A stretch of DNA of 64,000 nt, taken from contig NZ_JAJLMN010000001.1 in assembly GCF_021730615.1 (NCBI RefSeq), positions 3,421,501 through 3,485,500 on the forward strand, written 5' to 3'. The notes beneath the pieces were generated by a model. The model had not been told where the DNA came from. It saw only the letters and a list, made by a program, of their open reading frames with translations, and did no database searches. This DNA is from Lichenibacterium dinghuense. Its GTDB lineage: Bacteria; Pseudomonadota; Alphaproteobacteria; Rhizobiales; Beijerinckiaceae. This document shows, one piece after another, positions 7,714 through 23,911 of this stretch; the first letter of the stretch is position 1; every line of letters begins with the position of its first letter. Both the position numbers and the translations under genes were made by a program.

Positions 7714-8551
7714 CGGACGGTTCGGCACCGAAGGTCGCCGCGAAGGCAGCAGCGTGAGCGTCGTCGAGGGCGCGCGCCAGGACCCCTCCCTGCTTGGCCA
7801 GGATCCGGATCCCCAGCCCGGCGCCGTTGGGCAGCGGCGAGGCGCCCGCCAGCGCGCCGAGGGCGTCGAGCCGTGCCTCGACCGCTGCGGGATCGAGCCG
7901 ACCCGCCGCGGCCCCGAGGACGAGGACGGAGCCGAAGGCCGCGTGCGGGCCCAGGACGGACCCGGGTCCGAAAAGGGCCGTCCCGTCCAATTCGCACGCG
8001 TCGTCGACCAGCAGGGACCCATCCTCCGACAGGACCCTGCACCGGGTGGACAGGCGCCGGGGCGGCGAGCCCCGGCCGGCGGGATCGTGTGTGGCGAAGC
8101 CGTCGGCCACGACGACGGTCGCGGTCGGCGCCAGGACGATCTCCGTGGCGACCGAAAGCTGCGCTTCCGGGAATAGGACGTAGGGATCCGTCGTGACCGA
8201 GAGCATGGCGCCGTCCCGGGCCTCGATCCGATTGGCGACGACCGACCCGTCGCCGCGGGCGGAGTGCACCACGGTCGCCGCCTGGCTGGTCACGTGCGCG
8301 GCCGCGCCGGCGTTCGCCGTGACGACAAGGTCGAGCCGGTCGCCGCCGAACAGGCCGCCGGAGGCGGACTGGAGCACGAGGGTGGCCAGGTCGGGCCTCC
8401 CCGCCCCGAGATGGTGGGGCCGCGTGGCGTGGAATGGGTAGGGAACCCTCTGGCGCGCCAGGAACGTCCGGCCTCCGCCGACCGCGAAGCCGAGCTCGGC
8501 CCGGCTCGTGCGGCCCGGATGCACGGACCGGGTGTCGGGTCGCCGCAGCAC
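7700..8551 (-). CDS. ureD: Urease accessory protein UreD (UreH)
   Basis: A 283-residue maturation factor that forms the scaffold on urease to which UreF and UreG bind for nickel delivery. Recognisable UreD segments are LQSASGGLFGGDRL, HVTSQAATVVH and LPDAQ-like LFPEAQLSVATEI. I take GTG 8551, which starts 2 nt after the ureG stop. The frame extends further upstream but only antisense-like within ureG. It is the last gene of the minus-strand ure group, after ureG. UreD is more variable than the other urease proteins, but the context and motifs leave little doubt. Confidence 0.92.
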   Translation of the reverse strand: MLRRPDTRSVHPGRTSRAELGFAVGGGRTFLARQRVPYPFHATRPHHLGAGRPDLATLVLQSASGGLFGGDRLDLVVTANAGAAAHVTSQAATVVHSARGDGSVVANRIEARDGAMLSVTTDPYVLFPEAQLSVATEIVLAPTATVVVADGFATHDPAGRGSPPRRLSTRCRVLSEDGSLLVDDACELDGTALFGPGSVLGPHAAFGSVLVLGAAAGRLDPAAVEARLDALGALAGASPLPNGAGLGIRILAKQGGVLARALDDAHAAAFAATFGAEPSGRRR

Positions 8552-8552
8552 G

Positions 8553-9161
8553 TCAGGCCGTGAACAGGACGGCGCGCTGGATCGCGTCCGCCACGGCCTC
8601 GACGGCCTCACCGCGGCGCAGGCTGGTGGCGATGATGGGGCGACCGCCGCGCACCTGCTCGGCCTCCGACAGCATGCGCGGCAGGTCTACCCCGACGTGG
8701 GGCGCGAGGTCGGTCTTGTTGACGACGAGGAGGTCGCTTCGCAGGATCCCGGGGCCGCGCTTGCGAGGGATGTCGTCTCCGCCGGCGACGTCGATGACGA
8801 AAATCCACCAGTCCACGAGGTCGAGCGAGAAGGTCGAGGCGAGGTTGTCGCCGCCCGACTCGAAGATGATCAACTCCACCCCCGGGAAGCGGGCCTCGAG
8901 CTCGTCCCCGGCCGCGATGTTGAGGGTCGGATCCTCCCGGATCACCGTGTGCGGGCAGGCACCGGCCTCCACGGCGGCGACGCGCTCGGGGTCGATGAGG
9001 CCCGAGCGGCGCAGGCGTTCCGCGTCCTCGTGAGTCACGAGGTCGTTCGTCACGACGGCGAGGTCGACGCCCCGCCCCGCCAAGACGGGGATAAGGCGCT
9101 CGATCAGGGCGGTCTTGCCGGAGCCGACGGGGCCACCGATCCCGATGCGGGCCGCGCTCAT
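8553..9161 (-). CDS. ureG: Urease accessory GTPase UreG
   Basis: A 202-residue SIMIBI-class GTPase that powers nickel insertion into urease. The P-loop [15 protein letters not shown] is at residues 8-22, followed by [15 protein letters not shown] and the nickel-binding CPH in the segment [22 protein letters not shown] and [12 protein letters not shown] (guanine specificity, NKTD) complete the signature. ATG 9161 gives the normal length. It lies between ureC (5 nt upstream) and ureD, consistent with one polycistronic message. Confidence 0.96.
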
Positions 9162-9166
9162 CCGCC

Positions 9167-10879
9167 TCACCTCAACATGTAGCGTTGCGCGAGCGGGAGC
9201 CGCTCCGCCGGGTCGCACGTGGCGAGGGTGCCGTCGACGAAGACCTCGAACGTCTGCGGGTCGACCCGTATGTCGGGACAGGCGTCGTTCCACAGCATGT
9301 CCGACTTGCGCAGCGAACGGGTGCCGCTCGCCGGCAGCAGGCCCTTGGTGAGCCCGAGCTTGCGGTCGAGCCCTCCCGCGATCGCAGCCGGGTGGACGAA
9401 GCAGGCCGAAAGGGCGGGCGCGGCGCGACCGAAGGCCCCCCACTGAGGCCGCATCAGCACCGGCTCGCAGGTCATCAGCGAGGCCGCGGAATCGCCCATG
9501 GCGCCCCAGGCGATGAAGCCGCCCTTGATGACGAGCTCCGGCTTGATGCCGAAGAAGGCCGGGCGCCACACGACGACGTCGGCCATCTTGCGGTCCTCGA
9601 GCGAACCGACGTGGTCGGCGATGCCGAAGGTGCGGGCGGCGTTGATCGTGTATTTGGCGACGTAGCGGCGGATGCGGGCATTGTCGCCGCGGCCGGGCCG
9701 CTCCTCGGGGAGGGGGCCGCGCTGGTCCTTCATCTTTGAGGCCAACTGCCACGTCCGGCAGATGACCTCGTGGATCCGACCCATGCCCTGGCTGTCCGAT
9801 CCCAGCATCGAGATCGCGCCGATGTCGTGCAGCACGTCCTCGGCGGCGATCGTCTGCGGCCGGATGCGGCTCTCTGCGAAGGCCACGTCCTCCGGGATCG
9901 CCGGGTTGAGGTGATGGCACACCATCGTCATGTCGAGGTGCTCGTCGAACGTGTTCACCGTGTAGGGGTTGGTGGGGTTCGTCGACGACGGCAGGCAGTG
10001 CGCGAGCCCGGCGACCCGGATGATGTCGGGCGCGTGGCCGCCGCCGGCCCCCTCCGTGTGGTACATGTGGATGGTGCGGCCGCCGATGGCGGCCAGCGTG
10101 TCCTCCAGGAAGCCGCTCTCGTTCAGCGTGTCGGTGTGGATCTGCACCTGGAAGTCGAGCTCGTCCGCCACCTTGAGGCAGCAGTCGATGGCGGCCGGCA
10201 TGGAGCCCCAGTCCTCGTGCAGCTTCAGCCCGAGGCACCCGGTCTCCATCTGCTCGTGCAGCGAGGCGGGCCGGTGGGAGTTGCCGCGGCCCAGGAAGCC
10301 GAAGTTCACCGGAAAGCCCTCGGCCGCCTGGAGCATCTTGCCAGTGTTGAACGGGCCGCCGGAGTCGATGCCGACCGTAATCGGCCCGAGCGAACCACCC
10401 AGCATCGTGGTGATGCCGCTCGATATGGCGTGGTCGCAGAGCCCGGCGGAGTCGAAATGGACGTGCACGTCGATGGCGCCGGCCGTCGCGATCAGCCCCT
10501 CGCAGTCCCGCACGGTGGTGCCCTGCGACACGATGAGGCGTGGGTCGACGCCGTCCATCACGGCGGGGTTGCCGGCCTTGCCGAAGCCGACGATGCGGCC
10601 GTCCTTGATCCCGAGGTCGCCCTTCACGACGCCCAGCACCGCGTCGATCGCCACGACGTTGCAGAGCAAGAGGTCGAGCGCGCCCCCCTGACTCGTCACC
10701 CCGGGCGCCATGCCGGCCCCGTCGCGCAGCGTCTTGCCGCCGCCGTGCAGGCACTCGTCGCCGTAGGCGGTGAAGTCCCTCTCGACGATGGCGACGAGCG
10801 AGGTGTCGCCAAGGCGGAAGCCGTCCCCGACCGTGGGACCGTAGAGCTCGGCGTAGTGGCGCCGCGTCATCCGCGCCAT
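9167..10879 (-). CDS. ureC: Urease alpha subunit UreC
   Basis: The 570-residue catalytic subunit of urease, hydrolysing urea to ammonia and carbamate at a dinuclear nickel centre in the cytoplasm. Active-site elements are all visible: the HxH pair in [12 protein letters not shown], the carbamylated Lys in [10 protein letters not shown], His ligands in [10 protein letters not shown] and [14 protein letters not shown], the mobile-flap Cys-His in MVCHHLNP, and the Asp ligand in GSDSQGMGR. The usual DTHVHFI is here DVHVHFD, still with both histidines. ATG 10879 gives the family's standard length. It overlaps nothing and follows ureAB by 2 nt, so it is tightly coupled. Confidence 0.97.
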
Positions 10880-10881
10880 CG

Positions 10882-11577
10882 TCACGCCCCCTTGAAGCCG
10901 GCAGCGCGGGCGCGGGCCAGCGCCGCATCGCGGGCCGCATCGCCGTCGGTCACGCCTTCGGTCAAGCCGTGGAAGCCCGTCACCTCGCGCCGCCCGCCGT
11001 AGACGACCAGCGTCACGGCCTTCGACTGGCCGGGCTCGAAGCGGACCGCCGTGCCGGCCGGGATGTCGAGGCGCATGCCGAAGGCAGCGGCGCGGTCGAA
11101 CGACATGGCCTTGTTGGCTTCGAAGAAGTGGTAGTGCGAGCCGATCTGCACGGGGCGGTCGCCCGTGTTGACGGCGTCGATCGTGACGGTCCGGCGCCCG
11201 GCATTCAGCTCGATATCGCCCTCGCCCACCACGAGCGCGCCGGGCTCCAGCGCGTCTGCCTCGCCGCCCTCGACCGGGCGCATGGGCTCGTGGACGGTGA
11301 CGAGTTTCGTGCCGTCCGGGAACACCCCCTCGATCTGCAGGATCGGGGTCATCGCGGGGACGCCCGGCATGACATCCGCCGCGGTCAGGATGGTGGAGTC
11401 CCAGCCGATGAGGTCCGCCACGCTCCGCCCGTCTCGGGCACCCTCCAGGATCTCGTCCGTGATGAGGGCCACGGCCTCGGGGTGGTTCAGCCGCAGGCCG
11501 CGCGCGCGACGCTTGCGGGCGAGTTCCGCGGCCGTGAAGATCGTCAGTCTCTCCATCTCGGTCGGGGTGAGGAGCAT
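10882..11577 (-). CDS. ureA: Fused urease gamma-beta subunit (UreA-UreB)
   Basis: A 231-residue fusion. Residues 1 to about 100 are the gamma subunit ([61 protein letters not shown]). From about 130 comes the beta subunit ([50 protein letters not shown]). Most bacteria encode these separately; fused forms occur in Helicobacter and in some alphaproteobacteria. The gene symbol is ureA by convention for the fused gene and it covers ureB function. The long frame upstream of ATG 11577 runs into ureF and is not coding. Both parts look intact. Confidence 0.95.
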
Positions 11578-11588
11578 CGCAAGGTCCG

Positions 11589-12272
11589 TCAGTTCGAGAA
11601 GAGGCGCAGCCCGGAGCGCGCGTGGCGCGTCGCCGCGACGTCGAGCCACGGCGTCGCGCTCGACAGCCGGAGTGGCGGGGGATCGTCGGCCTCGCGTGCG
11701 AGGTCGGCGGCGAGGTCGAGGCTGTCGCCCAGCGCGCCCTGGGCATCGATGGCGCCCAGCCAGCCGAGCCTGACGGCCGCGTTGGCGAGGCCTGCCGCGA
11801 CCGTGTAGGCGGAGGCGGCCACGGCCGCCCGCGCGTCGAGCCCGCACCGGCGCCACACCCACCCCTGCACCACCGGCAGGTGCCCCAGCGCACGGCCGGC
11901 CGCGACCGCCGCCTTGAGCTCGGCGGCCTCGGGCGTGGCCAGCCGTCCGTGGGCGATCAGCAGCGCCCTGCCGTTGCGACGGGACCCGACGCGGAAGGCC
12001 TCCGTAGGCGTGGCGGCCTCCACGGCGCGGTCGACGATGGCGATGCGGTCGAGGTCCTCCGCCGCGAAGGCGTGGAGCAGGGCCACCCGGTCGACCGTCG
12101 CCCAGCGATGGCGCAGGGCCGCGTCCATCACCGCGGAAAGGCCAGCGCGGTCGAGCGGGCCGGCGAGGGCCGCGACCCCTTCGAGGCCGTTCGAGAAGGC
12201 GAAGCCGCCGCTCGGGAAGGCGGAGTCGCCTTGCCAGAGCGCCGCCAGGATCGCTCGCAAGGCCTCAGCCAC
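11589..12272 (-). CDS. ureF: Urease accessory protein UreF
   Basis: A 227-residue UreF, which with UreD forms the complex that docks UreG on apo-urease. The N-terminal signature [20 protein letters not shown] and later [20 protein letters not shown] are typical. I start it at GTG 12272, which overlaps the end of ureE by 8 nt. An upstream ATG in the same frame would run deep into ureE as shadow sequence. Position between ureE and ureAB is unusual compared with the more common ureDABCEFG order, but all components are present. Confidence 0.92.
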
Positions 12273-12723
12273 CCCCTTCGAGCACCGAGGCGCTGACGCG
12301 TCGCTCGGTGACCAGCGATCCGAGACGCTCCAGGTAGTCGTCCGCCGGGGCCTCGAGCGCGACGAGCATCGCCTCGCCGCCGAAGCGCACCCGCCAGTGC
12401 AGGTTGCCCGCGTGATGCCCGAGTTCGAGGGCGTCGGCGATGGAGCGGGGCTGGAGGCGCAGCCAGTGCTGCGTATCCACGCGGACCACCAACGCCCCAT
12501 CGTCGTCGAGCCTCAGCACGGCACCGTCGTAGAGCGCCGCGTCGCGCGAGAGGGCGACGGCGACGTCCTTTCCCCCCGCCGAGGTGGCGCGGAAGCGGCG
12601 TCGGGCGAGTTCGCCGGGCGGCAGCGTCAGGACGTCGACGCGGCCGTGGTGCTCGAGGTGGTGCAGCCGGTCGGCCAGCGCGGGATCCAGGCGGCTGCCG
12701 AGGACGCTTTCGATGAGGATCAT
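12265..12723 (-). CDS. ureE: Urease accessory protein UreE (nickel metallochaperone)
   Basis: A 152-residue UreE beginning MILIESVLGSRLD at ATG 12723. The peptide-binding N-terminal domain is followed by the metal-binding domain: ELGHHAGNLHWRVRFGGEAM contains the conserved paired His, and SIADALELGHH precedes it. The C-terminus lacks the His-rich tail seen in Klebsiella UreE, so nickel storage capacity should be low. It is the first ure gene, 60 nt after amiE in the same direction, and it overlaps ureF. Confidence 0.92.
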   Translation of the reverse strand: MILIESVLGSRLDPALADRLHHLEHHGRVDVLTLPPGELARRRFRATSAGGKDVAVALSRDAALYDGAVLRLDDDGALVVRVDTQHWLRLQPRSIADALELGHHAGNLHWRVRFGGEAMLVALEAPADDYLERLGSLVTERRVSASVLEGGG

Positions 12724-12783
12724 GTCGTCTCCGTCCGAGGGAGAGGTCCGGGGCACCCGAAGGCGCCCCGGCTCCGCGCGGTT

Positions 12784-13824
12784 TCAGCGATGGGCGACCG
12801 TCTTCCGGTTGGGGATGCCCTCCATCGGCGCTTCGTCGGTGCCCACCGTGTCGCGTGTCAGGGCCTCGACGGCCTCGCGCGTGGCCTCCGGGTCGGCGAT
12901 CCACTTCGCGTAGAAGTCGTAGGGGCAGGCCGCGACGCCCTTGTCGCCGTCGCCCGAGTTGATCGTGCCCGTGTAGCCGCGATGCACGAGCTTGAAGAGG
13001 TGGTTCTCGGACTGGCCGTGCTTGCGGAAGTCGCGGAGCAGAAACTTCGACAGGGCCGCGTACTGGATGCCCATCTCCTCGGTGCCGGTCTCGCCGAGGG
13101 TGCGGCCGTCGAAGCCGATCAGCGAGGAATGGCCGAAGTAGGTGTATACGCCGTCGAAGCCCGAAGCGTTGGCCACGGCCACGTAGCAGTTGTTGGCCCA
13201 GGCCATGCTCTTGGACATCATGATCTGCTGCTCCTTGGCGGGATACATGTAGCCCTGACAGCGGATGATTAATTCGGCGCCCTTCATGGCGCAGTCGCGC
13301 CAGATCTCGGGATAGTTGCCGTCGTCGCAGATGATCAACGAGATCTTCATGCCCTTCGGGCCTTCCGACACGTAGGTGCAGTCGCCCGGATACCAGCCCT
13401 CGATCGGCACCCAAGGCATGATCTTGCGGTATTTCTGGACGATCTCGCCCTCGTCGTTCATCAAGATGAGGGTGTTGTAGGGCGCCTTGTGCGGATGCTC
13501 CTCGTGCCGCTCGCCGGTGAGCGAGAACACGCCCCAGACCTTGGCCTTGCGGCAGGCCTCGGCGAAGATCTCGGTCTCGTCGCCGGGGATGGTCGAGGCC
13601 GTCTCGTACATCTCCTTCGAGTCGTACATGATGCCGTGGGTCGAGTATTCCGGGAAGATCACCAAGTCCATGCCGGGCAGGCCGGACTTCATGCCGATCA
13701 GCATGTCGGCGATCTTCTTGGCGTTGGCGATGACCTCGGCCTTCGTGTGGAGGCGGGGCATCTTGTAGGACACGACGGCGACGCCGACCGTGTCGTTGCT
13801 GGAGGAGATGTCACCGTGGAGCAT
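12784..13824 (-). CDS. amiE: Aliphatic amidase AmiE (EC 3.5.1.4)
   Basis: A 346-residue nitrilase-superfamily amidase, cleaving short aliphatic amides such as acetamide and propionamide to acid and ammonia. The N-terminus [20 protein letters not shown] and the length are almost those of Pseudomonas AmiE. The Glu-Lys-Cys triad sits in [10 protein letters not shown] (Glu59), YRKIMPW (Lys134) and [11 protein letters not shown] (Cys166, by alignment from memory). The related formamidase AmiF differs at the N-terminus, so AmiE is preferred. It sits between urtE and ureE, all one direction, and the AmiC/AmiR regulators that control amiE in Pseudomonas are present upstream of the transporter genes. 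Confidence 0.94.
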
Positions 13825-13896: not shown

Positions 13897-14592
13897 TCAG
13901 ACGGCGAGGTGGCGGTGGATCAGGTCGTCGCCGAGCTCGGCCCGGCGGCCGGAGGCCGCGACGCGACCCTTCTCCATGATGACAAAGGCGTCAGCCGCCT
14001 TGCGGGCGAACGGGATGTTCTGCTCGACCAGGACGATGGTGAGGCCCTCGTCGCGGTTGAGGCGCAGGATGATGTCCTCGATCTCGCGCACGATGTTGGG
14101 CTGGATGCCCTCGGTCGGCTCGTCGAGCAGCAGGACCTTGGGTTGCGCGGCGAGCGCGCGGGCGATGGCGAGCTGCTGCTGCTGGCCGCCCGACAGCAGG
14201 CCGCCGGGACGGCCGAGGTTGGCCATGAGGTAGGGGAAAAGGGCCGGCACGAGGTCGGGGATCGCCTGCCGGCCGTCCGGCCGCGCGAAGGCGCCCATGA
14301 GGATGTTCTCCCGCACCGTGAAGTCCGGGATGATCTGCCGGCCCTGCGGGACGTAGGCTATGCCGGCCCGCGCCCGCTTGTGCGTCGGCGCGGCGCCGAT
14401 CTCGACGTCGCCGAGCGCGATCCGGCCCGTGGACCGGTCGGTGAGGCCCATGAGGGTCTTCAGCAGGGTGGTCTTGCCCGTGCCGTTGCGGCCCAGCACC
14501 GACAGGATCTCGCCGCGGGCGATGCCGAGCGACACCCCGTGCAGGATGTGGCTGCGGTCGTAGAAGCTGTCGACGCCCTGGACGTTCAACAT
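13897..14592 (-). CDS. urtE: Urea/short-chain amide ABC transporter ATP-binding protein UrtE
   Basis: A 231-residue LivF-type ATPase of the branched-chain/urea transporter family. Walker A is GRNGTGKTTLLKTLMG, the signature LLSGGQQQQLAIARAL, and Walker B VLLLDEPTEGIQPNIV. The EGIQP wording is characteristic of UrtE rather than LivF. ATG 14592 overlaps the stop of urtD (shared bases), so they are coupled. With UrtD it energises uptake through UrtBC. Either urea or short amides could be carried. Confidence 0.93.
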   Translation of the reverse strand: MLNVQGVDSFYDRSHILHGVSLGIARGEILSVLGRNGTGKTTLLKTLMGLTDRSTGRIALGDVEIGAAPTHKRARAGIAYVPQGRQIIPDFTVRENILMGAFARPDGRQAIPDLVPALFPYLMANLGRPGGLLSGGQQQQLAIARALAAQPKVLLLDEPTEGIQPNIVREIEDIILRLNRDEGLTIVLVEQNIPFARKAADAFVIMEKGRVAASGRRAELGDDLIHRHLAV

Positions 14593-15338
14593 CAGTGGAT
14601 CCCCCCGGAGCCGAGGTAGGCTTCCTTGACCTTCGGGTCGTTCTCGATGTCGGAGATGCCGCCCTCGGCGATGATCTGGCCGAGGTGCAGCACGGTGATG
14701 CGCTCGGCGATCTCGCGCACGAAGGCCATGTCGTGCTCGACCACGATGAGCGTGTGCCGTCCCTTGAGGTCGTTGATGATGCGGGCGGTCTTCTGGGTCT
14801 CGCCGGCCGTCATGCCGGCCGTGGGCTCGTCGAGCAGGAGCACCTTCGGGTTTTGGGTGATGAGGAGCCCGAGCTCCAACCACTGCGTCTGCCCGTGCGA
14901 CAGGTTCGCGGCGGTCTCGTGCTCGACGTCGCGCAGGGCGACGAGGTCGAGGACCTCCTCAAGGCGGTCGCGGCTGGCCTTCGGGAACCCGAAGTGCAGG
15001 TTCGAGAACACGCCGCGGCCGGGGCAGCTGGCGACCTCGAGGTTGCGGCGCACCGAGAGCTCCTTGAACACGCTGGGGATCTGGAACTTGCGGCCCAGCC
15101 CGGCGCGGGCGATCACGTGCTCGTCGCGGTTGGTGATGTCCCGGTCGAACAGGAATACCCGCCCTTCCGTGCTCTGCGTGCGGCCCGAGATCAGGTCCAT
15201 GAGCGTCGTCTTGCCGGCGCCGTTGGCGCCGAGCAGGACCCTCAGCTCGCCGTCCTCCACCGTGGTGGAGACGCCTGACACGGCTTTGAACCCGGAAAAG
15301 TCGACCCCGAGCCCGTCGATGGTGAGTGCCACGGCCAT
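14592..15338 (-). CDS. urtD: Urea/short-chain amide ABC transporter ATP-binding protein UrtD
   Basis: A 248-residue LivG-type ATPase. Walker A is GANGAGKTTLMDLISG, the signature LSHGQTQWLELGLLI and Walker B VLLLDEPTAGMT. LSHGQ with QWLE in place of the generic LSGGQQR is a UrtD hallmark. The downstream VVVEHDM-like segment (IVVEHDMAFVREIAERITVL) carries the H-loop. ATG 15338 overlaps the urtC stop codon. It is part of the urtABCDE transcript. Confidence 0.93.
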   Translation of the reverse strand: MAVALTIDGLGVDFSGFKAVSGVSTTVEDGELRVLLGANGAGKTTLMDLISGRTQSTEGRVFLFDRDITNRDEHVIARAGLGRKFQIPSVFKELSVRRNLEVASCPGRGVFSNLHFGFPKASRDRLEEVLDLVALRDVEHETAANLSHGQTQWLELGLLITQNPKVLLLDEPTAGMTAGETQKTARIINDLKGRHTLIVVEHDMAFVREIAERITVLHLGQIIAEGGISDIENDPKVKEAYLGSGGIH

Positions 15339-16492
15339 CACAGGCCTCCCTTGGAGCTGGCGTGGACGGCGTCGGGCTCCGATGCAGCGACCGAACGGCC
15401 GCGGCGACGCCCGAGGAGGGCGCCCAGCGCGTCGTCTGCGAGGCCTGCGAGACCCCTCGGCAGGAACAGCACGACGAGGATGAAGATGAGGCCGATGATG
15501 GCGCGCCAGGACTCGACGAGGCTCTGCGTCTCGCTCATCCCGGCCTCGGCCATGTTGATGAGGATCGCGCCGATGCAGGCGCCGAGCAGCGAGTTGCGTC
15601 CGCCGACCGCGGCCCACACCACCATGGTGATGGAGAAGGACAGGTCGAGGAAGGTCGGGGAAGCGAACTCGGCGACGTTGACGTAGAGCAGCCCGGCGAG
15701 GCCCGCAATGGCGGCCGACACGGCGAAAAAGAACACCTGGTAGTTCGGCACGTCGAAGCCGAGGTAGCGGGCGCGGTTGGCGTCATCGCGCACCGCCTGG
15801 AGGACCAAGCCGGCGCGGGTCTCAACCAGCAACCGCGTGCCGACGAGCACCAGGGCCAGGGCGGTCGCCACGACGTAGTAGGTGGGCTTGCCGTAGCTGT
15901 CGAAGCTGAAGTCCCCGAGGGTGAAGCTGCCGAGGTCGGTCAGGCCGTTGAAGCCGTTCGTGAGCGGTTGCCCGTCGATCACGAGGAGACGCGCCAGCAG
16001 CACGAGGGCCAGGGTGATGATGGAGATGAAGACGCCGGCGATGCGCTTTTTGAAGATGACGGCGCCGAGCGCGGCCGCCGCGACCGTCGGCACCGCTACG
16101 GCCATGACGAGGCCGACCCACTGGCTCTGGAATGGGATCCACAGGAACGAGGTCTTGGTGATGCAACACAGGTCGGGCTTGGCGCCCGGCTCTGCGTTCC
16201 AGAACATGAAGTCGGGGATCGGGGTGTCGGAGCCCTGCTGCATCGAGGTGTTCGACGCGAGCTTCAGCGACATCGCCATCAGGTAGGCACCGAGGCCGAA
16301 GAACAGGCCCTGGCCGAGGTTGAGGATGCCGGCGTAGCCCCAGGACAGGCAGATTGCGACGCCGAGCATGCCGAAGACGAGGTACTTCGCGATGCGGTTG
16401 AGCCAGAACTCGCCGAGGAACGCCGGCAGCACCAGGATAAGGGCGATGAAGAGGACGTAGGACGCGATCTCGAATTGACGCTTGGCCGTCAT
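15338..16492 (-). CDS. urtC: Urea/short-chain amide ABC transporter permease UrtC
   Basis: A 384-residue LivM-type inner-membrane permease with about ten hydrophobic segments. LSWGYAGILNLGQGLFFGLG is the conserved permease motif. An extended periplasmic loop (about residues 85-120, DTPIPDFMFWNAEPG) is longer than in LivM, as in UrtC. AVRDDANRARYLGFDV is the cytoplasmic EAA-like coupling loop. Start at ATG 16492; the stop of urtB is 2 nt away. The C-terminal tail is Arg-rich. Confidence 0.92.
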   Translation of the reverse strand: MTAKRQFEIASYVLFIALILVLPAFLGEFWLNRIAKYLVFGMLGVAICLSWGYAGILNLGQGLFFGLGAYLMAMSLKLASNTSMQQGSDTPIPDFMFWNAEPGAKPDLCCITKTSFLWIPFQSQWVGLVMAVAVPTVAAAALGAVIFKKRIAGVFISIITLALVLLARLLVIDGQPLTNGFNGLTDLGSFTLGDFSFDSYGKPTYYVVATALALVLVGTRLLVETRAGLVLQAVRDDANRARYLGFDVPNYQVFFFAVSAAIAGLAGLLYVNVAEFASPTFLDLSFSITMVVWAAVGGRNSLLGACIGAILINMAEAGMSETQSLVESWRAIIGLIFILVVLFLPRGLAGLADDALGALLGRRRGRSVAASEPDAVHASSKGGL

Positions 16493-16494
16493 GG

Positions 16495-17388
16495 TCAGCG
16501 ACCCTTGTAGGAGAACAAGCCGCGGGGCTTGAGGACGATGATGGCGATGACGACGGCGAAGATGACGGCCCGGGCGAGAGTGTCGTTGGTGGCCGCGGCG
16601 ACGACGCCGTTGATCTGGCCGAGCAAGCCGGAGGCCGCTACGGCGCCGAAGAGCGAACCGACGCCGCCGACGACGACGACCAGGAAGCCGTCGACCACGA
16701 GGGGGGTGCCCATGTCGGGAAAGACGGTTTTGAAGCCCGACATCATCACGCCGGCCACGCCCGCGAGCCCCGAGCCGTAGGCGAAGGTCATGGCATTGAC
16801 GCGCTCGACGTCGATGCCGCAGGCTGCAGCCATCTTGGGGTTGCGCATGATGGCCCGCACCTGCGTGCCGATCGGCAGGCGGTACATGATGAACCAAGTC
16901 ACCGCCGCGAGGATCAGGGTCACGCCGATGATGAAGGTGCGGTAGAGGTTCACGTCGGTGCCGAGCAGACGTGCCGAGCCCGTCATCCAGGTCGGCACGT
17001 CGACCTTCTGCAGGCCGGATCCCAATCCCTCGACGTGGCGGCCGAAGAACGAGGCGCCGAACTCGAGTCGTACCGCCTGCTGGAGCAGGATGGCCACGCC
17101 CCAGGTGGCGAGCAGCGTGTCGAGCAGCCGGCCGTAGAGGTGGCGCACGATGAGCTTCTCGATGGCGAGCCCGATCGCCGCCGTGACCACGAAGGCGAGG
17201 GGGATCGATGCCAGGAAGCCGAGGTGGAGCCAGATGCCGGCCATCACCGTGGTGTATGCCCCCACCATGACGAGGTCGCCATGGGCCATGTTGATGACGC
17301 CCATGGCGCCGTAGGTGATGGCGAGGCCGAGCGCGATGAGCAGCAGGATCGAGCCGAGGCTCAGCCCGATGAGGATGACGTCGACCAT
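16495..17388 (-). CDS. urtB: Urea/short-chain amide ABC transporter permease UrtB
   Basis: A 297-residue LivH-type permease. ITYGAMGVINMAHGDLVMVG is the family signature near residues 24-43. VRAIMRNPKMAAACGIDVER is the ATPase-coupling loop. Start ATG 17388 begins MVDVILIGLSLGS; the upstream open frame is shadow of urtA. With UrtC it forms the transmembrane heterodimer. The 65-nt gap to urtA holds no evident terminator. Confidence 0.92.
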   Translation of the reverse strand: MVDVILIGLSLGSILLLIALGLAITYGAMGVINMAHGDLVMVGAYTTVMAGIWLHLGFLASIPLAFVVTAAIGLAIEKLIVRHLYGRLLDTLLATWGVAILLQQAVRLEFGASFFGRHVEGLGSGLQKVDVPTWMTGSARLLGTDVNLYRTFIIGVTLILAAVTWFIMYRLPIGTQVRAIMRNPKMAAACGIDVERVNAMTFAYGSGLAGVAGVMMSGFKTVFPDMGTPLVVDGFLVVVVGGVGSLFGAVAASGLLGQINGVVAAATNDTLARAVIFAVVIAIIVLKPRGLFSYKGR

Positions 17389-17453
17389 GCTGACCCGCCT
17401 TGAGGTTTTCGAGTGTGCGCCGGCTCTCGGACGAGGGCCGGCGTGATCCGGCG

Positions 17454-18707
17454 TCAGCCCTTGAGCTTCTTCACGTCGAGGCCCTTCGGCGTGCAGAACG
17501 GATTCTGCTCGGTCTCGCCGTAAGCCACGTAGGGCAGCGGGTAGATCGGGCCGGGGTAGGCGTCGACGATCTTGCCCTGGCCGTCGGCCCCCCACTGGGC
17601 GATGCGGGGTGTGAGCCAGGTGTGGAGGTTCTCGGCCGAGACCTTCACTTCGCCGCCCGGCGACAGGAACGACTGATCGCGCACTGCCTCGCGCACCGCG
17701 TTGGGACTCGTGTCTTTGGCCTTCTCGACGGCCTGCTTCCACAGGAACACCTGGAAATAGGCAGAGCACATGGCGTGGTGGGTGACCGCCTTGGGGTCTT
17801 TCACGAAGGCGCGGTAGCGCTCGATGAAGCTCTTGTTCTCCGGCGTGTCGATGGCCATGAAGTAGGGGAAGGACGTGTAGGAGCCGACCGCATATTCCGG
17901 TCCCATGGCGGCGATCTCGATCTCCGACGTCACCGTGGCGCAGATGGGCAGCTTGTCCATCGTCAGGCCCTGGTTCTTGTATTCGCGGTAGAAGGCCACG
18001 ACCGAGTCGCCCACCACGTTGGACAGCACCACGTCGCAGCCCGAGTTCTTGATCTTGTTGACCATCGAGCCCCACTCGGAGTGCCCGAGCTCGAGGTACT
18101 CGTCGCCCACGTAGGTCGCGCCGTGCTTCTCAAGCAGGATCTTGACGACCTTGGCCATCTCGCGCGGGTAGATGTAGTCCGAACCAACGATGAAGAACTT
18201 CTTCTTGCCGAGCTTCTCGATGATCCACGGCACGAAATTCGAGAGCTGCTGGTTCGGCACCGCACCCGTATAGACCACGTTGCGGGAGCACTCGTAGCCC
18301 TCGTAGTAGGTCGGATAGAAGTACATCGAGTTGCGCTTCTCGAACACTGGCAGCACGGCCTTGCGGCTGGCCGAGGTGTAGGAGCCGAAGACGGTCGGCA
18401 GCTTGTTCTCGATGACGAGCTTCGAGGCCTTCTCGTTGTAGGTCTTGGGGTCCGAAGCCCCGTCCTCCTCGATGGCGCGGACCTGCTTGCCCATGACGCC
18501 GCCGGAGGCGTTGATTTCGGAGATCGCCATCATGGTGGCGTCGTGCAGGGACTTCTCGACGATGGACAGGCCGCCCGTGAGCGAGAAGAGCACGCCGACG
18601 TCGATGGTGTCGGCAGCGAAGGCCGCGCGGGGCAGAAACGTCGGGCCGGCGAGCGCGGCGGCGCTTCCGACGCCGGCTTGCAGGAAGGAGCGGCGGTTCA
18701 TCTGCAT
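17454..18707 (-). CDS. urtA: Urea/short-chain amide ABC transporter substrate-binding protein UrtA (Tat signal)
   Basis: A 417-residue periplasmic binding protein. The N-terminus MQMNRRSFLQ carries a twin-arginine motif, followed by a hydrophobic stretch and an AFA-A type cleavage site near residue 31, so export is probably by Tat. The mature part (VGVLFSLTGGLSIVEKSLHD; IFGSYTSASRK-like VFGSYTSASRKAVLP; YEGYECSRNVVYTGAVPNQQ) is typical of UrtA/FmdD. This family also includes AmiC, whose gene lies upstream. Ligand could be urea or a short amide. It is first of the structural genes, after a long leader with a terminator. Confidence 0.93.
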   Translation of the reverse strand: MQMNRRSFLQAGVGSAAALAGPTFLPRAAFAADTIDVGVLFSLTGGLSIVEKSLHDATMMAISEINASGGVMGKQVRAIEEDGASDPKTYNEKASKLVIENKLPTVFGSYTSASRKAVLPVFEKRNSMYFYPTYYEGYECSRNVVYTGAVPNQQLSNFVPWIIEKLGKKKFFIVGSDYIYPREMAKVVKILLEKHGATYVGDEYLELGHSEWGSMVNKIKNSGCDVVLSNVVGDSVVAFYREYKNQGLTMDKLPICATVTSEIEIAAMGPEYAVGSYTSFPYFMAIDTPENKSFIERYRAFVKDPKAVTHHAMCSAYFQVFLWKQAVEKAKDTSPNAVREAVRDQSFLSPGGEVKVSAENLHTWLTPRIAQWGADGQGKIVDAYPGPIYPLPYVAYGETEQNPFCTPKGLDVKKLKG

Positions 18708-18878
18708 CGATTATCGTCTCTCGTTTCGAGCCTCGGGGGCGAGGCAGTTGCGGGCAGTTCGGGAGCGGCCGGCCGCACCTCCGCGCGGACTGGCGCGCAA
18801 AGGCGGGCGCGTCCGCAAGACGGCTCGGGGGTCGACGACTCGGGAAACGCGGCTTCGGTGAAGTACAAAACGCAAAAA

Positions 18879-18910
18879 GCCCGAATAGCCCCGTGAAGGG
18901 CTGTTCGGGC
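18879..18910 (-). terminator. Rho-independent terminator in the urtA leader
   Basis: On the minus strand a 13-bp stem (GCCCGAACAGCCC pairing with GGGCTATTCGGGC, one G-U) with loop TTCACG is followed at once by TTTTT. It lies upstream of, not after, the operon genes, so it only makes sense as a conditional leader terminator, or as the amiCR terminator that AmiR overrides. Confidence 0.85.
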
Positions 18911-18925
18911 TACATCGCCACATCA

Positions 18926-18945
18926 AACCGACAGCACTGGCGGCT
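18926..18945 (-). promoter_or_regulatory. Hairpin P2, identical hexaloop AGTGCT
   Basis: On the minus strand: arms AGCCGCC and GTCGGTT around AGTGCT, with one C-U mismatch and one G-U pair. It lies 16 nt after P1 and 15 nt before the terminator. A tandem pair of hexaloop hairpins with the same loop is the arrangement bound by AmiR-type ANTAR dimers. Confidence 0.6.
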
Positions 18946-18961
18946 CGACCAGGTCGGACGT

Positions 18962-18979
18962 CACTGCAGCACTGCAGCG
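18962..18979 (-). promoter_or_regulatory. Hairpin P1, hexaloop AGTGCT (candidate ANTAR target)
   Basis: On the minus strand: arms CGCTGC and GCAGTG (one G-U pair) around the hexaloop AGTGCT. A at loop position 1 and G at position 4 are the two invariant loop bases described for ANTAR-protein RNA targets. Confidence 0.65.
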
Positions 18980-18999
18980 CACCTCGACCGTTTTTAAGG

Positions 19000-19608
19000 T
19001 TAGGTGGCTCTCGGACGTGCTGTCAAGAGCTCATTGGCGTTGATGATGGCGTTGGCCATCTCCTCCATCGAGATCCGCTTCGTCATGGCCTGCTGGCGGA
19101 TTGTTTTATAGGCATCTTCCTCGTTAAGTGCCTGGCTTTGCATCAGGATTGCCTTGGCGCGCTGGATTTTTTGCACGCCGGCGATTTTGTTCTCCAACTT
19201 TCGGAGCTTCCTGTGCATTTCCTGGCGCTCCAGCCACAAGGTGCGGGCGAGGATGACGTTCGTGAGGAGGCCGAAGGGACGGATCGGCTTCTCGACCACG
19301 GCGAGCGCCCCACATTCCAAAACCACCTGGAGTGTGGCCGAATTCTCGTAGTCGACGATCGCAATGAGGGCGGCACTCGCCTGCCCCTCCGACTTCACGA
19401 ACCGTCGGATGAGATCGCGCTGCTCGTAGTCGACCACGAGCATGACCAATTGGGCGTTGGGAGATGGTCCATCAGGCATCGGCCAGTTCGCGTCGACGGT
19501 GCATCCGATCCGGCGCAGGTGCTCGACGAGGCTGCGCCCGTCATCGTCGGGCGGATGGACGACCTGGATGCGGAGATCGCGCAGGTCGCGCAGGACGTTG
19601 GTCGACAT
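19000..19608 (-). CDS. amiR: AmiR-like ANTAR antitermination regulator
   Basis: A 202-residue protein with an N-terminal receiver-like fold (about 10-125) and a coiled coil. A C-terminal ANTAR RNA-binding domain covers about 135-195 (IQRAKAILMQSQALNEEDAY, KTIRQQAMTKRISMEEMANA). ANTAR proteins bind paired hexaloop hairpins and prevent terminator formation. In Pseudomonas AmiR is held inactive by AmiC until an amide binds. The gene starts 3 nt after the amiC stop, matching the amiCR pairing. The receiver part lacks a clear phospho-acceptor Asp context, as in AmiR, so control by AmiC rather than phosphorylation is likely. Confidence 0.92.
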   Translation of the reverse strand: MSTNVLRDLRDLRIQVVHPPDDDGRSLVEHLRRIGCTVDANWPMPDGPSPNAQLVMLVVDYEQRDLIRRFVKSEGQASAALIAIVDYENSATLQVVLECGALAVVEKPIRPFGLLTNVILARTLWLERQEMHRKLRKLENKIAGVQKIQRAKAILMQSQALNEEDAYKTIRQQAMTKRISMEEMANAIINANELLTARPRAT

Positions 19609-19611
19609 GGC

Positions 19612-20778
19612 TCAAGGCTTTCCGACGCCGACGGAGGGCCTGAGCAGCGCGTCCGCCGACCAATCGTCGAGGCTCTGCGTGATAAAGTAGGGGTCGGGCT
19701 TCACCCGCAGGCCCGGGTTCCACACCGTTTGGAAGCGCCGGGCATCGTCGATCCGCGCGACGCGCGGCCACAGGAAGGTGTGGTTGTTCTCCGGGTCGAC
19801 GCGGATACGGCCCTGCGGGGCATCGAATTCGGCTCCCCGGAGTTCCCCGACGAGGCGCTCTGGGTTGTCGGTCCCGGCGCGGCGCATGGCCTGAGCGGCG
19901 AGGTGGACCTGGAAGTAGGCCGCTTCGGCACCCGCCGACACGGGCGCATCCGCCCCGAACATCGCTTTATAGGCCTTCACGAACCGGGCGGCGGCCGGCG
20001 TCGGCAAGATCTCGAAGAACGGGGCGGCCGTGATATGCCCGGCAGCGGCCTCCGCAGGCATGTCGGCGACTTCCGCCTCGCTCGTCGTCAGGCTGGCGAT
20101 GGGTATGTCGGCGGACTCCAGGCCGGCAGCGTGATAGGCCTGATAGAACAGACCTGTCGACCGACCGACCACCGTGGAGAACACGACGTCTGGCTTCAGC
20201 TTGCGGACTTTGGAGACAACCCCGTCGAAGTGGCCTGGCTCGGCGTCGAGCGGCACGTAGATCTCGTCGAGCACCTTGCCGCGCGATTGTACGACCAGAT
20301 CAGTCATGATTCTATTTAATTCGTAGGGATAGACGTAATTGGAGCCCACCATGAGGAATCGGCTGCCGTGCATTTCGAGTAGGTATTTCGCCAGCTGTAG
20401 CGAGCTCTGGTTCGGCGCAAGCCCTGTGTAGATACAGTTTGGAGAGTATTCGAAGCCTTCGTACGGCGTCGGGTAAAAGAGCAGTGCGTGATGAGATTCG
20501 ACGAGTGGAAGCACGACCTTGCGCGAGCTAGACATGTAGCATCCGAAGATCAACCTGACTCGATCGATGGTGAGAAGCCGTTCCGCGAATTGACGGTAGA
20601 TCCTGAGATTCGAAGCAGGGTCGTACGCGACCGCCTCAAGCGGCCGGTCAAGGACACCGCCTGCTGCGTTCACCTCCGACAACGCTAACAGGGTGCCGTT
20701 GAGCTGCGTCTGCTCGATCGCGCCGGTCGCCCCGGTGCGAGAAAAGAGCACCCCAATCCGCCAAGGTTCCTTCGCCAT
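19612..20778 (-). CDS. amiC: AmiC-like amide sensor (cytoplasmic periplasmic-binding-protein fold)
   Basis: A 388-residue type I binding protein without a signal peptide when started at ATG 20778 (MAKEPWRIGVLFSRTGATG). An in-frame ATG at 20862 adds 28 residues that still do not form an export signal. Close matches to Pseudomonas AmiC include IFGCYMSSSRKVVLP, LFYPTPYEGFEYSPN, YTGLAPNQSS, VVFSTVVGRSTGLFY and IASLTTSEAEVADM. AmiC binds acetamide-like ligands and then frees AmiR to act on leader RNA. It is first of the array of minus-strand genes. Confidence 0.92.
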   Translation of the reverse strand: MAKEPWRIGVLFSRTGATGAIEQTQLNGTLLALSEVNAAGGVLDRPLEAVAYDPASNLRIYRQFAERLLTIDRVRLIFGCYMSSSRKVVLPLVESHHALLFYPTPYEGFEYSPNCIYTGLAPNQSSLQLAKYLLEMHGSRFLMVGSNYVYPYELNRIMTDLVVQSRGKVLDEIYVPLDAEPGHFDGVVSKVRKLKPDVVFSTVVGRSTGLFYQAYHAAGLESADIPIASLTTSEAEVADMPAEAAAGHITAAPFFEILPTPAAARFVKAYKAMFGADAPVSAGAEAAYFQVHLAAQAMRRAGTDNPERLVGELRGAEFDAPQGRIRVDPENNHTFLWPRVARIDDARRFQTVWNPGLRVKPDPYFITQSLDDWSADALLRPSVGVGKP

Positions 20779-21042
20779 CGATACCCGATCGTCCCCGGAC
20801 CTGCACGCCGCGGGCCTGTCTCCAATGCTTGTGACCTTCGCCTCGCTCGCCGGCAAGGCCATGGCGGTTTAGCTGTCGCTGCTCGGTCACAGGAAGGAGC
20901 GACGGGCGGCGGCCCGCTGTGCTGGCTACGTCTGCTTCCGCGGATTGCTGTTAGGCTTGGCTACGCCCGGTTCGGGTCGACACCGGCCGATGATGGCCCC
21001 ATCTCTCGAATGTACGAAGCCTCCCATCCACGTGGGTTGCTG

Positions 21043-21067
21043 AGCACACATCAATTCGTTGTGTGCT
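21043..21067. repeat. Inverted repeat upstream of relaxase (candidate oriT arm)
   Basis: Perfect 8-bp arms AGCACACA (21043-21050) and TGTGTGCT (21060-21067) with a 9-nt loop, about 160 nt before the MobA/MobL start. Relaxases of this class usually nick beside such a repeat close to their own gene. No confirmed nic consensus is visible. Confidence 0.4.
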
Positions 21068-21142
21068 GGTGTCTCTCCGCCGTTTTCCCTTGAGCACTGC
21101 GGCGCGGCAACTCGCGCAGCAACAAGCAAGGCCGCCTAAGGC

Positions 21143-21170
21143 GACTGGGCGACGGTGACTGGGCGACGGT
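21143..21170. repeat. 14-bp tandem duplication
   Basis: GACTGGGCGACGGT occurs twice head to tail just before the relaxase gene. It could belong to an oriT or simply be a local slip duplication. Confidence 0.6.
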
Positions 21171-21226
21171 GATGGACGAGCCGGGTAGACTCGGCCCCGG
21201 AGCGATTCGGCTCAGGGCGCGCGGGT

Positions 21227-23911
21227 ATGGTCATGGCGAAGAGCATCGATGCCATCGACACGGTCGTCGCCCTCTTCCCCGCGAGTTCGCGCACGCTCAT
21301 CGAGCGCCTGCTCGAGCGCGCCCGGGAGAAAGAGGCTCGGCAGGCGGGTCGGAGCGCGGCGGCGGCGGTGCGCGACCTCGGACGGCTCGTGCAGGCCGGC
21401 AGCGGAGGACGCCAGGGCTCGCGGCTCGCAGCCGAACTGTCGAAGGCGCTCGAGCTGAGGGGGAACATCAGCGGCAAGACCTCGATCCGGCAGAAGGCGC
21501 CGGATACCGGCGGCCGGTCGTTCCACTTCGCCCACAGCGTCATCAAGAAAGACGACGCACCGCGGAGGGCGTCGTCGTCGAGACCCGGCGCTACCCCGGC
21601 CGGGGCGTCGCCGCTAGGGGTGGGCTCGGTGAGCAACCGCAGCAAGACCGGGCGCTCAGCCGCGCACATGCGCTACATCGAGCGCGAGACGGCCGTGGAA
21701 TGCGGCCGCGGCCAGGACATCGACGGGCCGGCAGTCGCCGCGTCGGCAGGTGACCGCTCGCCGGAGGGGCACGGCAGGGAGGCGGGCGGCGTCGGGCGCG
21801 ACGCTGTGCAGGCCACGAGCGCGTCGGCGGGGCAGGCCTACGTCGAAAACCCGGCCAAACTCGTCAACGGCGAAGTGATCGCCTTCTCGTTCGGCACGAT
21901 CGGCGAGCGTTTCGAGGACCGCCTCCGGTTCTGGGAGGCGCTGGAGCAAGCCGAAGCACACCCGGACGCGAGGGTTCAGCACCGCCTCATCGTCGAGCTG
22001 CCCCACGAGGCCTCGCCGAAAGCGCGCTTCGACATGGTGCAGCTGTTCTGCCGGCGGTTCGAGGACGACGGCGTGCCGTTCTGGGCGGCGCTGCACGCGC
22101 CCGGCCCGGGCAATGACAGCCGCAACTTCCACGCCCACATAGTCTATAGCGAGCGGCCTGCGAAACGGATGGTGGACCCGGACGACCCCGCCGGGCCGCT
22201 CCGGTGGGACTTCGAGGTGACGCGGACGCACCGAAAGAAGAACCGCGTCATGGCCACCTCGCGTCCCTACCGGCAGGGCAAGCTCAGGACCTACAGCGGG
22301 ATCGGCTTCATTCCGATGCTCCGCGCCGAGTTCGCGGGCGTCGTCAACGAGGTTCTTACCCGCGACGCGGTCGCGGATGCGAAGGGTGCGCGGGTCGTCT
22401 ACGACGCCCGGTCCTACAAGAACATGGGCCTCGCCGTCGTGCCGATGCGGTCGGTCAACCGCATCGTCGCGGACAAGGTCAAGGGCGGCAAAGCGAGCGT
22501 GCTCGACGGGCAGTACACGAAGCGGATGATCGCGGCCGAGCTCCGGGAGGCCGCGGCCAGGCGCGAAAGGGACGTGCTCGAGGTCGTGGCGCTCGACGAC
22601 GCACTGAAGGTTGCGACGTCCCTGCGGGGCGGCGGCAAGACAGCGCCGTCGCTGCCCCGCGATCTCCAGGTGTCCCCGCTGTCGACCGTGCCGCGAGCCT
22701 TTCTGAAGCCCGCGGCGGAGCGCCTGCTTCGGGCCCGGCGCGAGGCGGTGCAGGTGAATGTCATGGAGCGGGCCGCCATGGCCTCGCTCGGGCGCATCGT
22801 CGAAGCGACGGCTCCGAAGGCCGTCGAGGCTGCCGCGAGGTCGAAGTACCCGGTCGTGCGCGCCCAGGCCCCGGACGCCGCTGTCACGCGACTGCTGCAC
22901 GAGGCGGCGCTCGAGGAGCAGAAGAAGACGCGTCGTGAGGCGGCGGTGGCCAGGAAGTCGCTGCGCGTCCGGGTCGCCGCTGCGGTGACCGAGTGGCGTG
23001 AGCTGACGCAGTCGCCGAGCACGACCCGGTCGCCGATCATGCGGCAGGCCGTGGCCGAGTCGGTGCGCCCGTCGCCGGAGCCGCAGCCCACACCATCGCG
23101 CGAGAAGATCGATGGCGCGGACGGGGCGGCGCGGGCGGCTTCGCCGACCCGTGTGCCGACGGCGCGACCAGCCCATCAAGCCGGGCTTGGGCGGAACTCC
23201 ACGACCCGCGCCGACGTGCATCGGCCCATGCCGGGACTGCAGGGCATGCCGACCCTCGGTGACCTCCTCGCCGTGTCGGAGACGGTGTCGCGGTGGATCA
23301 AGGCCGTCGTCGACGGCATCGAGGATGCCGACGGTCGCATGAAGGCGATCGATGCGTTCTACGACAGCCTGAAAGCACACAAGAAGGCCGAGAAAGCGGC
23401 GGAGCGGGCGGCGGCGGCCGAAATGGCCGAGGCGGCGGGGGCTGCGAAGGCTGTGGTCCAGACAAAGGCGGCGGAGGGTTCGTCGCGGGACGGTGAGGCG
23501 GTGGCGAGGACGTCCTCAGACAGGGCGCCGGCGGGCGATAGCGCGACCGGCGCGGCCCCGCCCACCTTGGGCTCCGACGGCCCGCCGATCGCGCCCGCCT
23601 CGCGCGCTCCGGCACTTGAGCCCGCCGCTCGGGCGACGCAGGCGAGTCCGACCACAGCCGTGCCGGCCGTGGCCACCGGCAGTGTGCCGCCCGCCGCATC
23701 ATCCGCCGCGCCACCTGCAACCATCACGAGCCGGGCACCTCCGCCCGACGGGGGCATGCACATGCCTACGGAGGATCCGCATGTGGACGCCGAGGCTGCG
23801 TCCGCGGCGGATGACGAGCGCCGACGCAAGAAGTGGGAGGAGGAGCTCGAGAAGCGTTGCAAGAAGCGAAAGGCCGTGCTGGGTCGCCGGAACAAGGGCC
23901 GGGAACGGTAG
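21227..23911 (+). CDS. MobA/MobL-family relaxase
   Basis: An 894-residue protein. The N-terminal half contains the MobA/MobL nuclease core: MRYIERE (about residue 148), the strand QHRLIVELPHEASPKARFD and the metal-binding NFHAHIVYSERP (about 304-315). Such relaxases nick plasmid or element DNA at oriT and stay bound through transfer. The C-terminal third is low-complexity, Ala/Pro-rich, ending with the basic helix RRKKWEEELEKRCKKRKAVL. ATG 21227 or 21233 both fit. No VirB/VirD4 genes are in the window, so the element is probably mobilisable rather than self-transmissible. Confidence 0.82.
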   Translation: MVMAKSIDAIDTVVALFPASSRTLIERLLERAREKEARQAGRSAAAAVRDLGRLVQAGSGGRQGSRLAAELSKALELRGNISGKTSIRQKAPDTGGRSFHFAHSVIKKDDAPRRASSSRPGATPAGASPLGVGSVSNRSKTGRSAAHMRYIERETAVECGRGQDIDGPAVAASAGDRSPEGHGREAGGVGRDAVQATSASAGQAYVENPAKLVNGEVIAFSFGTIGERFEDRLRFWEALEQAEAHPDARVQHRLIVELPHEASPKARFDMVQLFCRRFEDDGVPFWAALHAPGPGNDSRNFHAHIVYSERPAKRMVDPDDPAGPLRWDFEVTRTHRKKNRVMATSRPYRQGKLRTYSGIGFIPMLRAEFAGVVNEVLTRDAVADAKGARVVYDARSYKNMGLAVVPMRSVNRIVADKVKGGKASVLDGQYTKRMIAAELREAAARRERDVLEVVALDDALKVATSLRGGGKTAPSLPRDLQVSPLSTVPRAFLKPAAERLLRARREAVQVNVMERAAMASLGRIVEATAPKAVEAAARSKYPVVRAQAPDAAVTRLLHEAALEEQKKTRREAAVARKSLRVRVAAAVTEWRELTQSPSTTRSPIMRQAVAESVRPSPEPQPTPSREKIDGADGAARAASPTRVPTARPAHQAGLGRNSTTRADVHRPMPGLQGMPTLGDLLAVSETVSRWIKAVVDGIEDADGRMKAIDAFYDSLKAHKKAEKAAERAAAAEMAEAAGAAKAVVQTKAAEGSSRDGEAVARTSSDRAPAGDSATGAAPPTLGSDGPPIAPASRAPALEPAARATQASPTTAVPAVATGSVPPAASSAAPPATITSRAPPPDGGMHMPTEDPHVDAEAASAADDERRRKKWEEELEKRCKKRKAVLGRRNKGRER

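Follow-up and report, generated by a model that had tools for sequence, protein, structure and literature searches.

An AmiC-AmiR pair stands before a transporter, amidase and urease operon

In the 64,000-nt stretch of Lichenibacterium dinghuense DNA that we analysed (the window), a short leader separates a pair of regulatory genes from a long operon for a urea/amide transporter, an aliphatic amidase and urease. The question raised by this locus is whether the leader is a switch through which AmiR controls the operon, and which of its hairpins make up that switch. All genes of the locus lie on the minus strand. We identified amiC (19612-20862), encoding an amide-binding sensor and negative regulator of the PF13433 family, whose best solved match is the AmiC of the amidase operon (1pea/1qo0, E 1.8e-99, 336.7 bits), followed by 8tg1 at 259 bits and by urea-binding proteins at 183-186 bits. 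The adjoining amiR (19000-19608) encodes an ANTAR antitermination protein with an AmiR_N domain (PF21332, 114.8 bits) and an ANTAR domain (PF03861, 47.8 bits), and its best solved match is 1qo0_D (E 4.6e-23). An AmiR_N plus ANTAR protein next to an AmiC-type binding protein was thus found directly upstream of the leader, as the preliminary description of this DNA had it, and judging from the best solved matches the pair appears to be of the same kind as the crystallised AmiC-AmiR pair.

The first gene past the leader (17454-18707) encodes a UrtA-like substrate-binding protein, which scores 418.6 bits against TIGR03407, under the cut-off of 492.75. It matches 8tg1, titled 'Extracellular ligand-binding receptor', at 337.8 bits, compared with 271-277 bits for the urea-binding proteins 7s6e, 7s6f and 8hic. 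Because 8tg1 outscores the solved urea-binding proteins, urea is perhaps not the sole ligand; and with a score below the urea-specific cut-off and an amidase in the cluster, the transporter may take short-chain amides as well as urea. The open reading frames as listed for the rest of the transporter are urtB (16495-18075; permease, named by its position between urtA and urtC, with PF02653 at residues 234-512 in the C-terminal half), urtC (15338-16897; permease, TIGR03408, 366.5 bits), urtD (14592-15617; ATPase, TIGR03411, 319.7 bits) and urtE (13897-14883; ATPase, TIGR03410, 305.7 bits), the last three above their cut-offs. The true start of urtC is probably later than that of its listed frame. 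They are followed by amiE for the aliphatic amidase (12784-13824; NF009802, 707.5 bits, cut-off 427) and by the urease genes ureE, ureF, an ureAB fusion, ureC, ureG and ureD (7700-12756), assigned from PF02814, PF01730, PF00547 plus PF00699, PF00449, the UreG model TIGR00101 and PF01774. The order in the window is therefore amiC-amiR-leader-urtABCDE-amiE-ureEFABCGD.

A gene for a MobA/MobL relaxase (21227-23911, plus strand) lies about 365 nt upstream of amiC and is oriented away from it, and a gene for a large serine recombinase is found at 40793-42679 (plus strand). Together these suggest a mobile element next to the operon. Elsewhere in this genome, a single ANTAR match at E ≤ 0.001 was found (locus L001, C1:1381753-1381908), in the same open frame as a PilJ domain match.

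Anatomy of the leader

The preliminary description had placed two AGTGCT hairpins and a terminator here on the minus strand, with a C-U mismatch in the second hairpin, and the sequences and the fold bear this out. The roles given to the hairpins did not hold: the hairpin called P2 is the canonical P1, and the canonical P2 had been missed. The upstream hairpin, formerly P1 and here called P0 (18962-18979; CGCTGC[AGTGCT]GCAGTG at 18979-18962), starts 20 nt past the amiR stop. The canonical P1 spans 18922-18949 with 10 pairs and the one C-U mismatch; its loop AGTGCT is at 18933-18938 and its core is the former P2 (18926-18945; CCGCC[AGTGCT]GTCGG at 18943-18928). Covariation and alignment underlie this assignment. 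The canonical P2, or antiterminator, is GGC[GATGTA]GCC at 18908-18919, assigned from its conservation in aligned leaders and from its folding as an alternative to the terminator. The intrinsic terminator (18874-18911) has 14 pairs and one C-A mismatch, mostly conserved basal pairs, and a U-run at 18878-18874 of which the first U is paired. The 141 nt from 18860 to 19000 fold at -63.3 kcal/mol, compared with -46.89 +/- 4.05 for shuffles, of which 0 of 200 were as good (z -4.05).

The P1 loop AGTGCT is a hexaloop with A at position 1 and G at position 4 (A1/G4), and the P2 loop GATGTA has G at position 4. Position 1 of the P2 loop is G rather than A, and a strict A1/G4 rule for both loops fails there. 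The window leader shares this looseness with a large set of AmiR leaders; that it works like them is firm, and its strict membership of the class is less so. The linker between P1 and P2 measures 8 nt with the 5-position P1 core and 2 nt when the outer P1 stem is counted, and P2 begins 13 nt after the end of the P1 loop.

The identity of the P0 and P1 loops is partly a by-product of the repeated palindrome CTGCAG-TG-CTGCAG. Among 5000 dinucleotide shuffles of the 56-nt stretch around P0, 7.1% contained an A1/G4 hexaloop on at least 4 bp and 0.06% one with the loop AGTGCT itself. P0 may be a chance repeat of the palindrome or an extra AmiR site. Rfam gave no match in the window at the gathering threshold; at a permissive threshold over 401 bases it gave 7 weak matches, the best with E 0.074 and far under the family cut-off, none of them to an ANTAR-named family. 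Counted over its two strands, the window has 9 copies of the motif GACANNGNNGTC, where 3.09 would be expected and 1 of 100 shuffles reaches 9; none of the copies lies within 13992-21257, hence none in the leader.

Conservation among AmiR relatives

Relatives of AmiR were taken from 297 genomes of the order and a contig scan (27 loci), from further samples of 385, 398 and 149 genomes of the class, phylum and family, respectively, and from plasmids (247 records matched, 17 places retrieved by match). We defined as close relatives the 31 loci whose AmiR is at least 48% identical. In all 31, a GGC-loop-GCC running into a T-run is found behind amiR, with a loop of 6 nt in 30 and of 8 nt in one (L071). 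The gene past the leader is that for UrtA in 23 close relatives, AmiE in 6 and UreE in 2. P1 was searched by a rule that ignores the loop letters, with the loop end 12-16 nt before P2; wherever it was detected this distance was 12-15 nt, and no P1 hairpin passed the rule in 3 of 32 loci (L068, L083 and L072).

We aligned 23 leaders, near-duplicates being left out (L062, L063, L067, L068, L071, L074, L075, L076 and L078). The preliminary description had named conserved paired AxxGxx loops and compensatory stem changes as checks on its proposal. The first was borne out for G4, which is invariant, as aligned, in the loops of both P1 and P2 (23/23), as are the GGC and GCC of P2. It was not borne out for A1, which is present in 17 of 23 leaders at P1 and in 8 at P2, where the other leaders have T (9) or G (6). 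In the Rhizobium/Agrobacterium and Variovorax rows there is no A1/G4 hexaloop at P1, so the G4 of P1 in these rows is a matter of alignment only. The loop AGTGCT also occurs at the P1 position of Ancylobacter leaders.

On plasmids, urt genes behind amiR and the leader were found in Aminobacter, Ancylobacter, Rhizobium, Neorhizobium, Agrobacterium and Variovorax, the Rhizobium and Neorhizobium stretches stopping within urtD and the plasmid gene tables omitting some genes. In Shinella the leader stands before ureE. In the record of a Rhizobium beringeri plasmid (L070), urtA may be disrupted: it is missing from the gene list after the leader, and the UrtA match in the best frame begins no earlier than residue 167. 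More distant AmiR leaders (33-40% identity; L003, L010, L019, L039-L059 and others) often keep P2, for example as GGC[TATGCA]GCC. Two loci (L117 and L118, in genomes G1159 and G027) show the leader twice: about 1.9 kb ahead of the first copy, the same model finds another, followed immediately by an amiC 61-63% identical to that of the window. With a leader directly before amiC, amiCR is probably itself controlled there.

Covariation and covariance models

Compensatory change, the second of these checks, gave a divided result, with three of five measures standing out. Over the P1 and P2 cells of the 23 leaders, 71.3% were paired compared with 63.6 +/- 1.9 in shuffles, 33 cells had changes on both sides compared with 19.8 +/- 3.1, and the covariation score was 0.232 compared with 0.130 +/- 0.023; each value was reached by 0 of 500 shuffles, which ignore the relatedness of the leaders, and by none of six slid registers. 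The two other measures did not stand out: 7 pairs had changes on both sides (reached by 368 of 500 shuffles, with slid registers reaching 8 and 9), and 20 further pair types were seen (reached by 79 of 500 shuffles, with one slid register giving 21). P2 is beyond the reach of covariation because its 3 pairs are all invariant. Only 61.6% of the P1 cells were paired; the pair beside the closing pair (the C-U mismatch of the window) does not form in 10 of 23 rows and is also mismatched in L011, L012 and L004. On this alignment P1 is supported, not proven, by covariation.

A covariance model built from 22 relatives without the window (R2) recovered the whole element from P1 through P2 to the terminator at 18874-18951 on the minus strand with 62.5 bits (E 3.7e-15, a rough value from a short calibration). 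Its second match, at 13.3 bits, was the same place on the opposite strand, and the next other place scored 9.5 bits. Among 27 more distant AmiR loci, R2 matched 14 at E ≤ 0.01 and 3 more at E ≤ 1, leaving 10 unmatched. A second model, R1, trained on the window, was run on the window's own genome, where 150 of 14041 candidates were scored and 12 places had E ≤ 10. The leader scored 71.9 bits, and one of the places was the leader on the other strand. The second place (27.4 bits, E 0.002) is without a U-run and lies inside long open frames on both strands, and for these reasons was taken for a chance match.

P2 and the terminator compete for the same bases

The preliminary description had left open whether P2 and the terminator fold exclusively of each other. 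With P2 reassigned, the GCC at 18908-18910 is both its 3' arm and part of the 5' arm of the terminator, and since the 3' arm of P2 doubles as the 5' base of the terminator, the two are expected to be mutually exclusive. Across 12 growing prefixes of the RNA in 3-nt steps, P2 belonged to the best structure up to the tenth and dropped out of the last 2 as the terminator base formed. The full terminator has -24.2 kcal/mol; when P2 keeps the GCC the remainder has -13.8 kcal/mol and is separated from the U-run. Left to fold freely, the RNA favours the terminator state over the P2-held state by 8.9 kcal/mol, which is as expected without AmiR. Mutual exclusion of P2 and terminator is thus supported by the anatomy and by computed folding, whereas P0, the P1 core and the terminator all fold within one structure.

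Transcription start

A simple sigma-70 scan of 18600-21400 found no promoter. A looser scan gave a weak TTGACA-18-TAACCT at 19026-18997 (minus strand), overlapping the end of amiR. At this place, which coincides with coding sequence and the stop codon, a similar promoter-like pair is also seen in some relatives. The leader is read either from upstream of amiC or from this weak pair. In the interval from 30 nt ahead of the amiR stop to P1, 26 of 29 distant and 11 of 31 close leaders contain a TTGAC box, and some leaders may thus be transcribed from a promoter of their own. Promoter-like pairs by the loose rule are about equally frequent (11 of 29 distant, 10 of 31 close leaders), and it is only the lone TTGAC box that differs. 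On these counts, a promoter of their own does not clearly set the distant leaders apart from the close ones.

A proposed mechanism and its alternatives

Based on the conserved element, the adjoining proteins and the operon behind it, the leader is very probably an AmiR-dependent transcription antitermination leader of the ANTAR dual-hexaloop kind, which upholds the core of what the preliminary description had proposed for the control of urtABCDE-amiE-ure. By analogy with the studied AmiR, NasR and EutV systems, from which the ligand, the release by AmiC, the binding by AmiR and the read-through are all drawn, AmiC would hold AmiR when no amide is present, the nascent RNA would fold the terminator (18911-18874) and transcription would end after amiCR. 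In the presence of amide, AmiR would be released and would bind P1 through the loop AGTGCT and P2 through the loop GATGTA. Since P2 uses the GCC needed at the terminator base, a held P2 would shorten the terminator and part it from the U-run, and RNA polymerase would read on into urtABCDE-amiE-ureEFABCGD.

As first described, AmiR would instead bind the two AGTGCT hairpins (18962-18979 and 18926-18945) and block the terminator without overlapping it. Both hairpins exist and have identical A1/G4 loops, AGTGCT recurs at the P1 of Ancylobacter, and one study reports binding of an ANTAR dimer to a lone hexaloop (PMC8934654). Against this, a counterpart of the upstream hairpin with A1/G4 is found in 0 of 22 relatives, so it is not confirmed as the partner in a pair; both hairpins fold together with the terminator, and there is then no competition; and the two loops are 29 nt apart while the conserved P2 is located elsewhere. 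We regard this version as very unlikely.

We give a similarly small chance to an ordinary terminator of amiCR, with idle hairpins and an unseen downstream promoter for the urt operon. Terminators after genes are common and the simple scan was blank over the 18600-21400 interval, but a conserved loop G, GGC/GCC arms and spacing before such different first genes as those for UrtA (23), AmiE (6) and UreE (2 of 31) would be unexpected. That AmiR works through the leader RNA chiefly on mRNA stability or on translation of the operon, and not on termination, is scarcely credible. ANTAR RNA matches without a terminator are thought, in passages of PMC3369931, to act otherwise, and a hexaloop past the terminator is conserved in the relatives; in the window, the hexaloop by the terminator shares its arm and the hairpin past the terminator is absent.

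A third hairpin past the terminator in relatives

We searched for this hairpin, P3, 8-36 nt past the U-run. An A1/G4 hexaloop on at least 4 bp is present there in 21 of 23 leaders (L004, L005, L011, L012, L015, L017, L021, L023, L024, L033-L036, L061, L069, L070, L072, L073, L077, L079 and L083) and absent in the window and L020, against a background of 3.0% in dinucleotide shuffles and of 2 in 69 stretches that lie further downstream. The stricter form AC[AxxGxx]GT (in RNA AC[AxxGxx]GU) is found in 20 of 23 leaders, the window being among the 3 without it, compared with 0.04% of shuffles. P3 is mostly GAC[AxxGxx]GTC, and its loop begins 13-30 nt past the U-run. Among loci added later, P3 is present in L084, L100-L102 and L114 and not in L108 and L113, and L110 has a 4-bp A1/G4 hairpin without AC/GU that was not counted. 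Neither form was found in 29 distant leaders, many of them near-copies, and the leaders directly before amiC in L117 and L118 are without P3. On the AmiR tree, P3 is present in 27 of 32 scored rows (6 more rows were unscored) and its distribution requires 6 changes, at least 3 of them by well-supported branches.

There is no regular second GGC-N6-GCC after P3 that would make it part of a second pair, and elsewhere in four related operon stretches the AC[AxxGxx]GT hairpins with stems of 5 bp or more are sparse and irregular. The closing pairs AC/GU match those of P1 in the eutP leader of EutV, where, according to passages of PMC3369931, their sequence mattered. Among the titles and abstract openings listed in literature searches, none names such a post-terminator hairpin. 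We put at even odds that the leaders of this clade are three-hexaloop devices, with P1, a terminator-overlapping P2 and a lone AC[AxxGxx]GU that exists only in read-through RNA; AmiR would either pass along P1, P2 and P3 in turn or be retained on each read-through mRNA, in the manner of a sink or a protector. The window would then be a form without P3 and with the extra upstream AGTGCT hairpin.

Known systems and what the locus adds

Published passages on ANTAR leaders describe a P2 that overlaps the terminator base, A1/G4 loops and a short linker (PMC3369931, PMC3369936, PMC8934654). The EutV eut and NasR nasF leaders resemble that of the window in having P1 and P2, G4 in both loops, P2 over the 5' arm of the terminator and a short linker. 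The 8-nt linker counted with the 5-position P1 core is inside the 5-12 nt given for the Enterococcus faecalis eut leaders in passages of PMC3369931. Unlike these systems, the window leader carries G as the first base of the P2 loop, and release of AmiR would depend on AmiC rather than on phosphorylation or nitrate. The AmiC-AmiR system of Pseudomonas aeruginosa, with its leader compared through published passages, has the same proteins by sequence, hexaloops before a terminator and an amidase target. According to passages of PMC3369936, that leader stands ahead of amiE, with the regulator genes further along in one shared operon, whereas the window has the regulators at the front and its leader in the gap from amiR to urtA.

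Control of a transporter, amidase and urease array had been presented as unusual for such a switch, and this did not stand, since the same or similar operons lie behind the leader on related plasmids and, in passages of Ramesh et al. 2012, urea transporters are among the ANTAR RNA matches (PMC3369931). Plasmid pB of Ancylobacter polymorphus (NZ_CP083241, L069) has the same gene order through amiE and urease and the same leader type, with a post-terminator hexaloop AGGGCC that the window is without, and with no upstream AGTGCT hairpin. In passages of a 2026 paper (PMC13209695), amiE, amiC and amiR share a plasmid operon with an ABC transporter. The fmdCABDEF operon of Methylophilus methylotrophus, described in passages of PMC10781810 as serving short-chain amide/urea uptake with a putative positive regulator, is like the window operon in combining one transporter for amides and urea with an amide hydrolase; the text of that source names neither AmiC nor AmiR. 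The operon arrangement behind the AmiR leader is thus not unique or unusual and the kind of leader is already known; what the analysis adds is the corrected anatomy of P1 and P2 and the P3 of the relatives.

This anatomy provides an exact, testable layout for AmiR control of an entire urea/amide operon, within a family in which one leader type is coupled to different first genes, UrtA, AmiE or UreE. The related leaders are a good data set for how AmiR reads RNA, above all for the loose position 1 of the P2 loop. Finally, the P3 of the relatives is a concrete candidate case for binding of ANTAR proteins to a single hexaloop. A naturally conserved site with one hexaloop was foreseen in passages of PMC8934654, and if the three-hexaloop reading is true, P3 would be a site of this foreseen kind.
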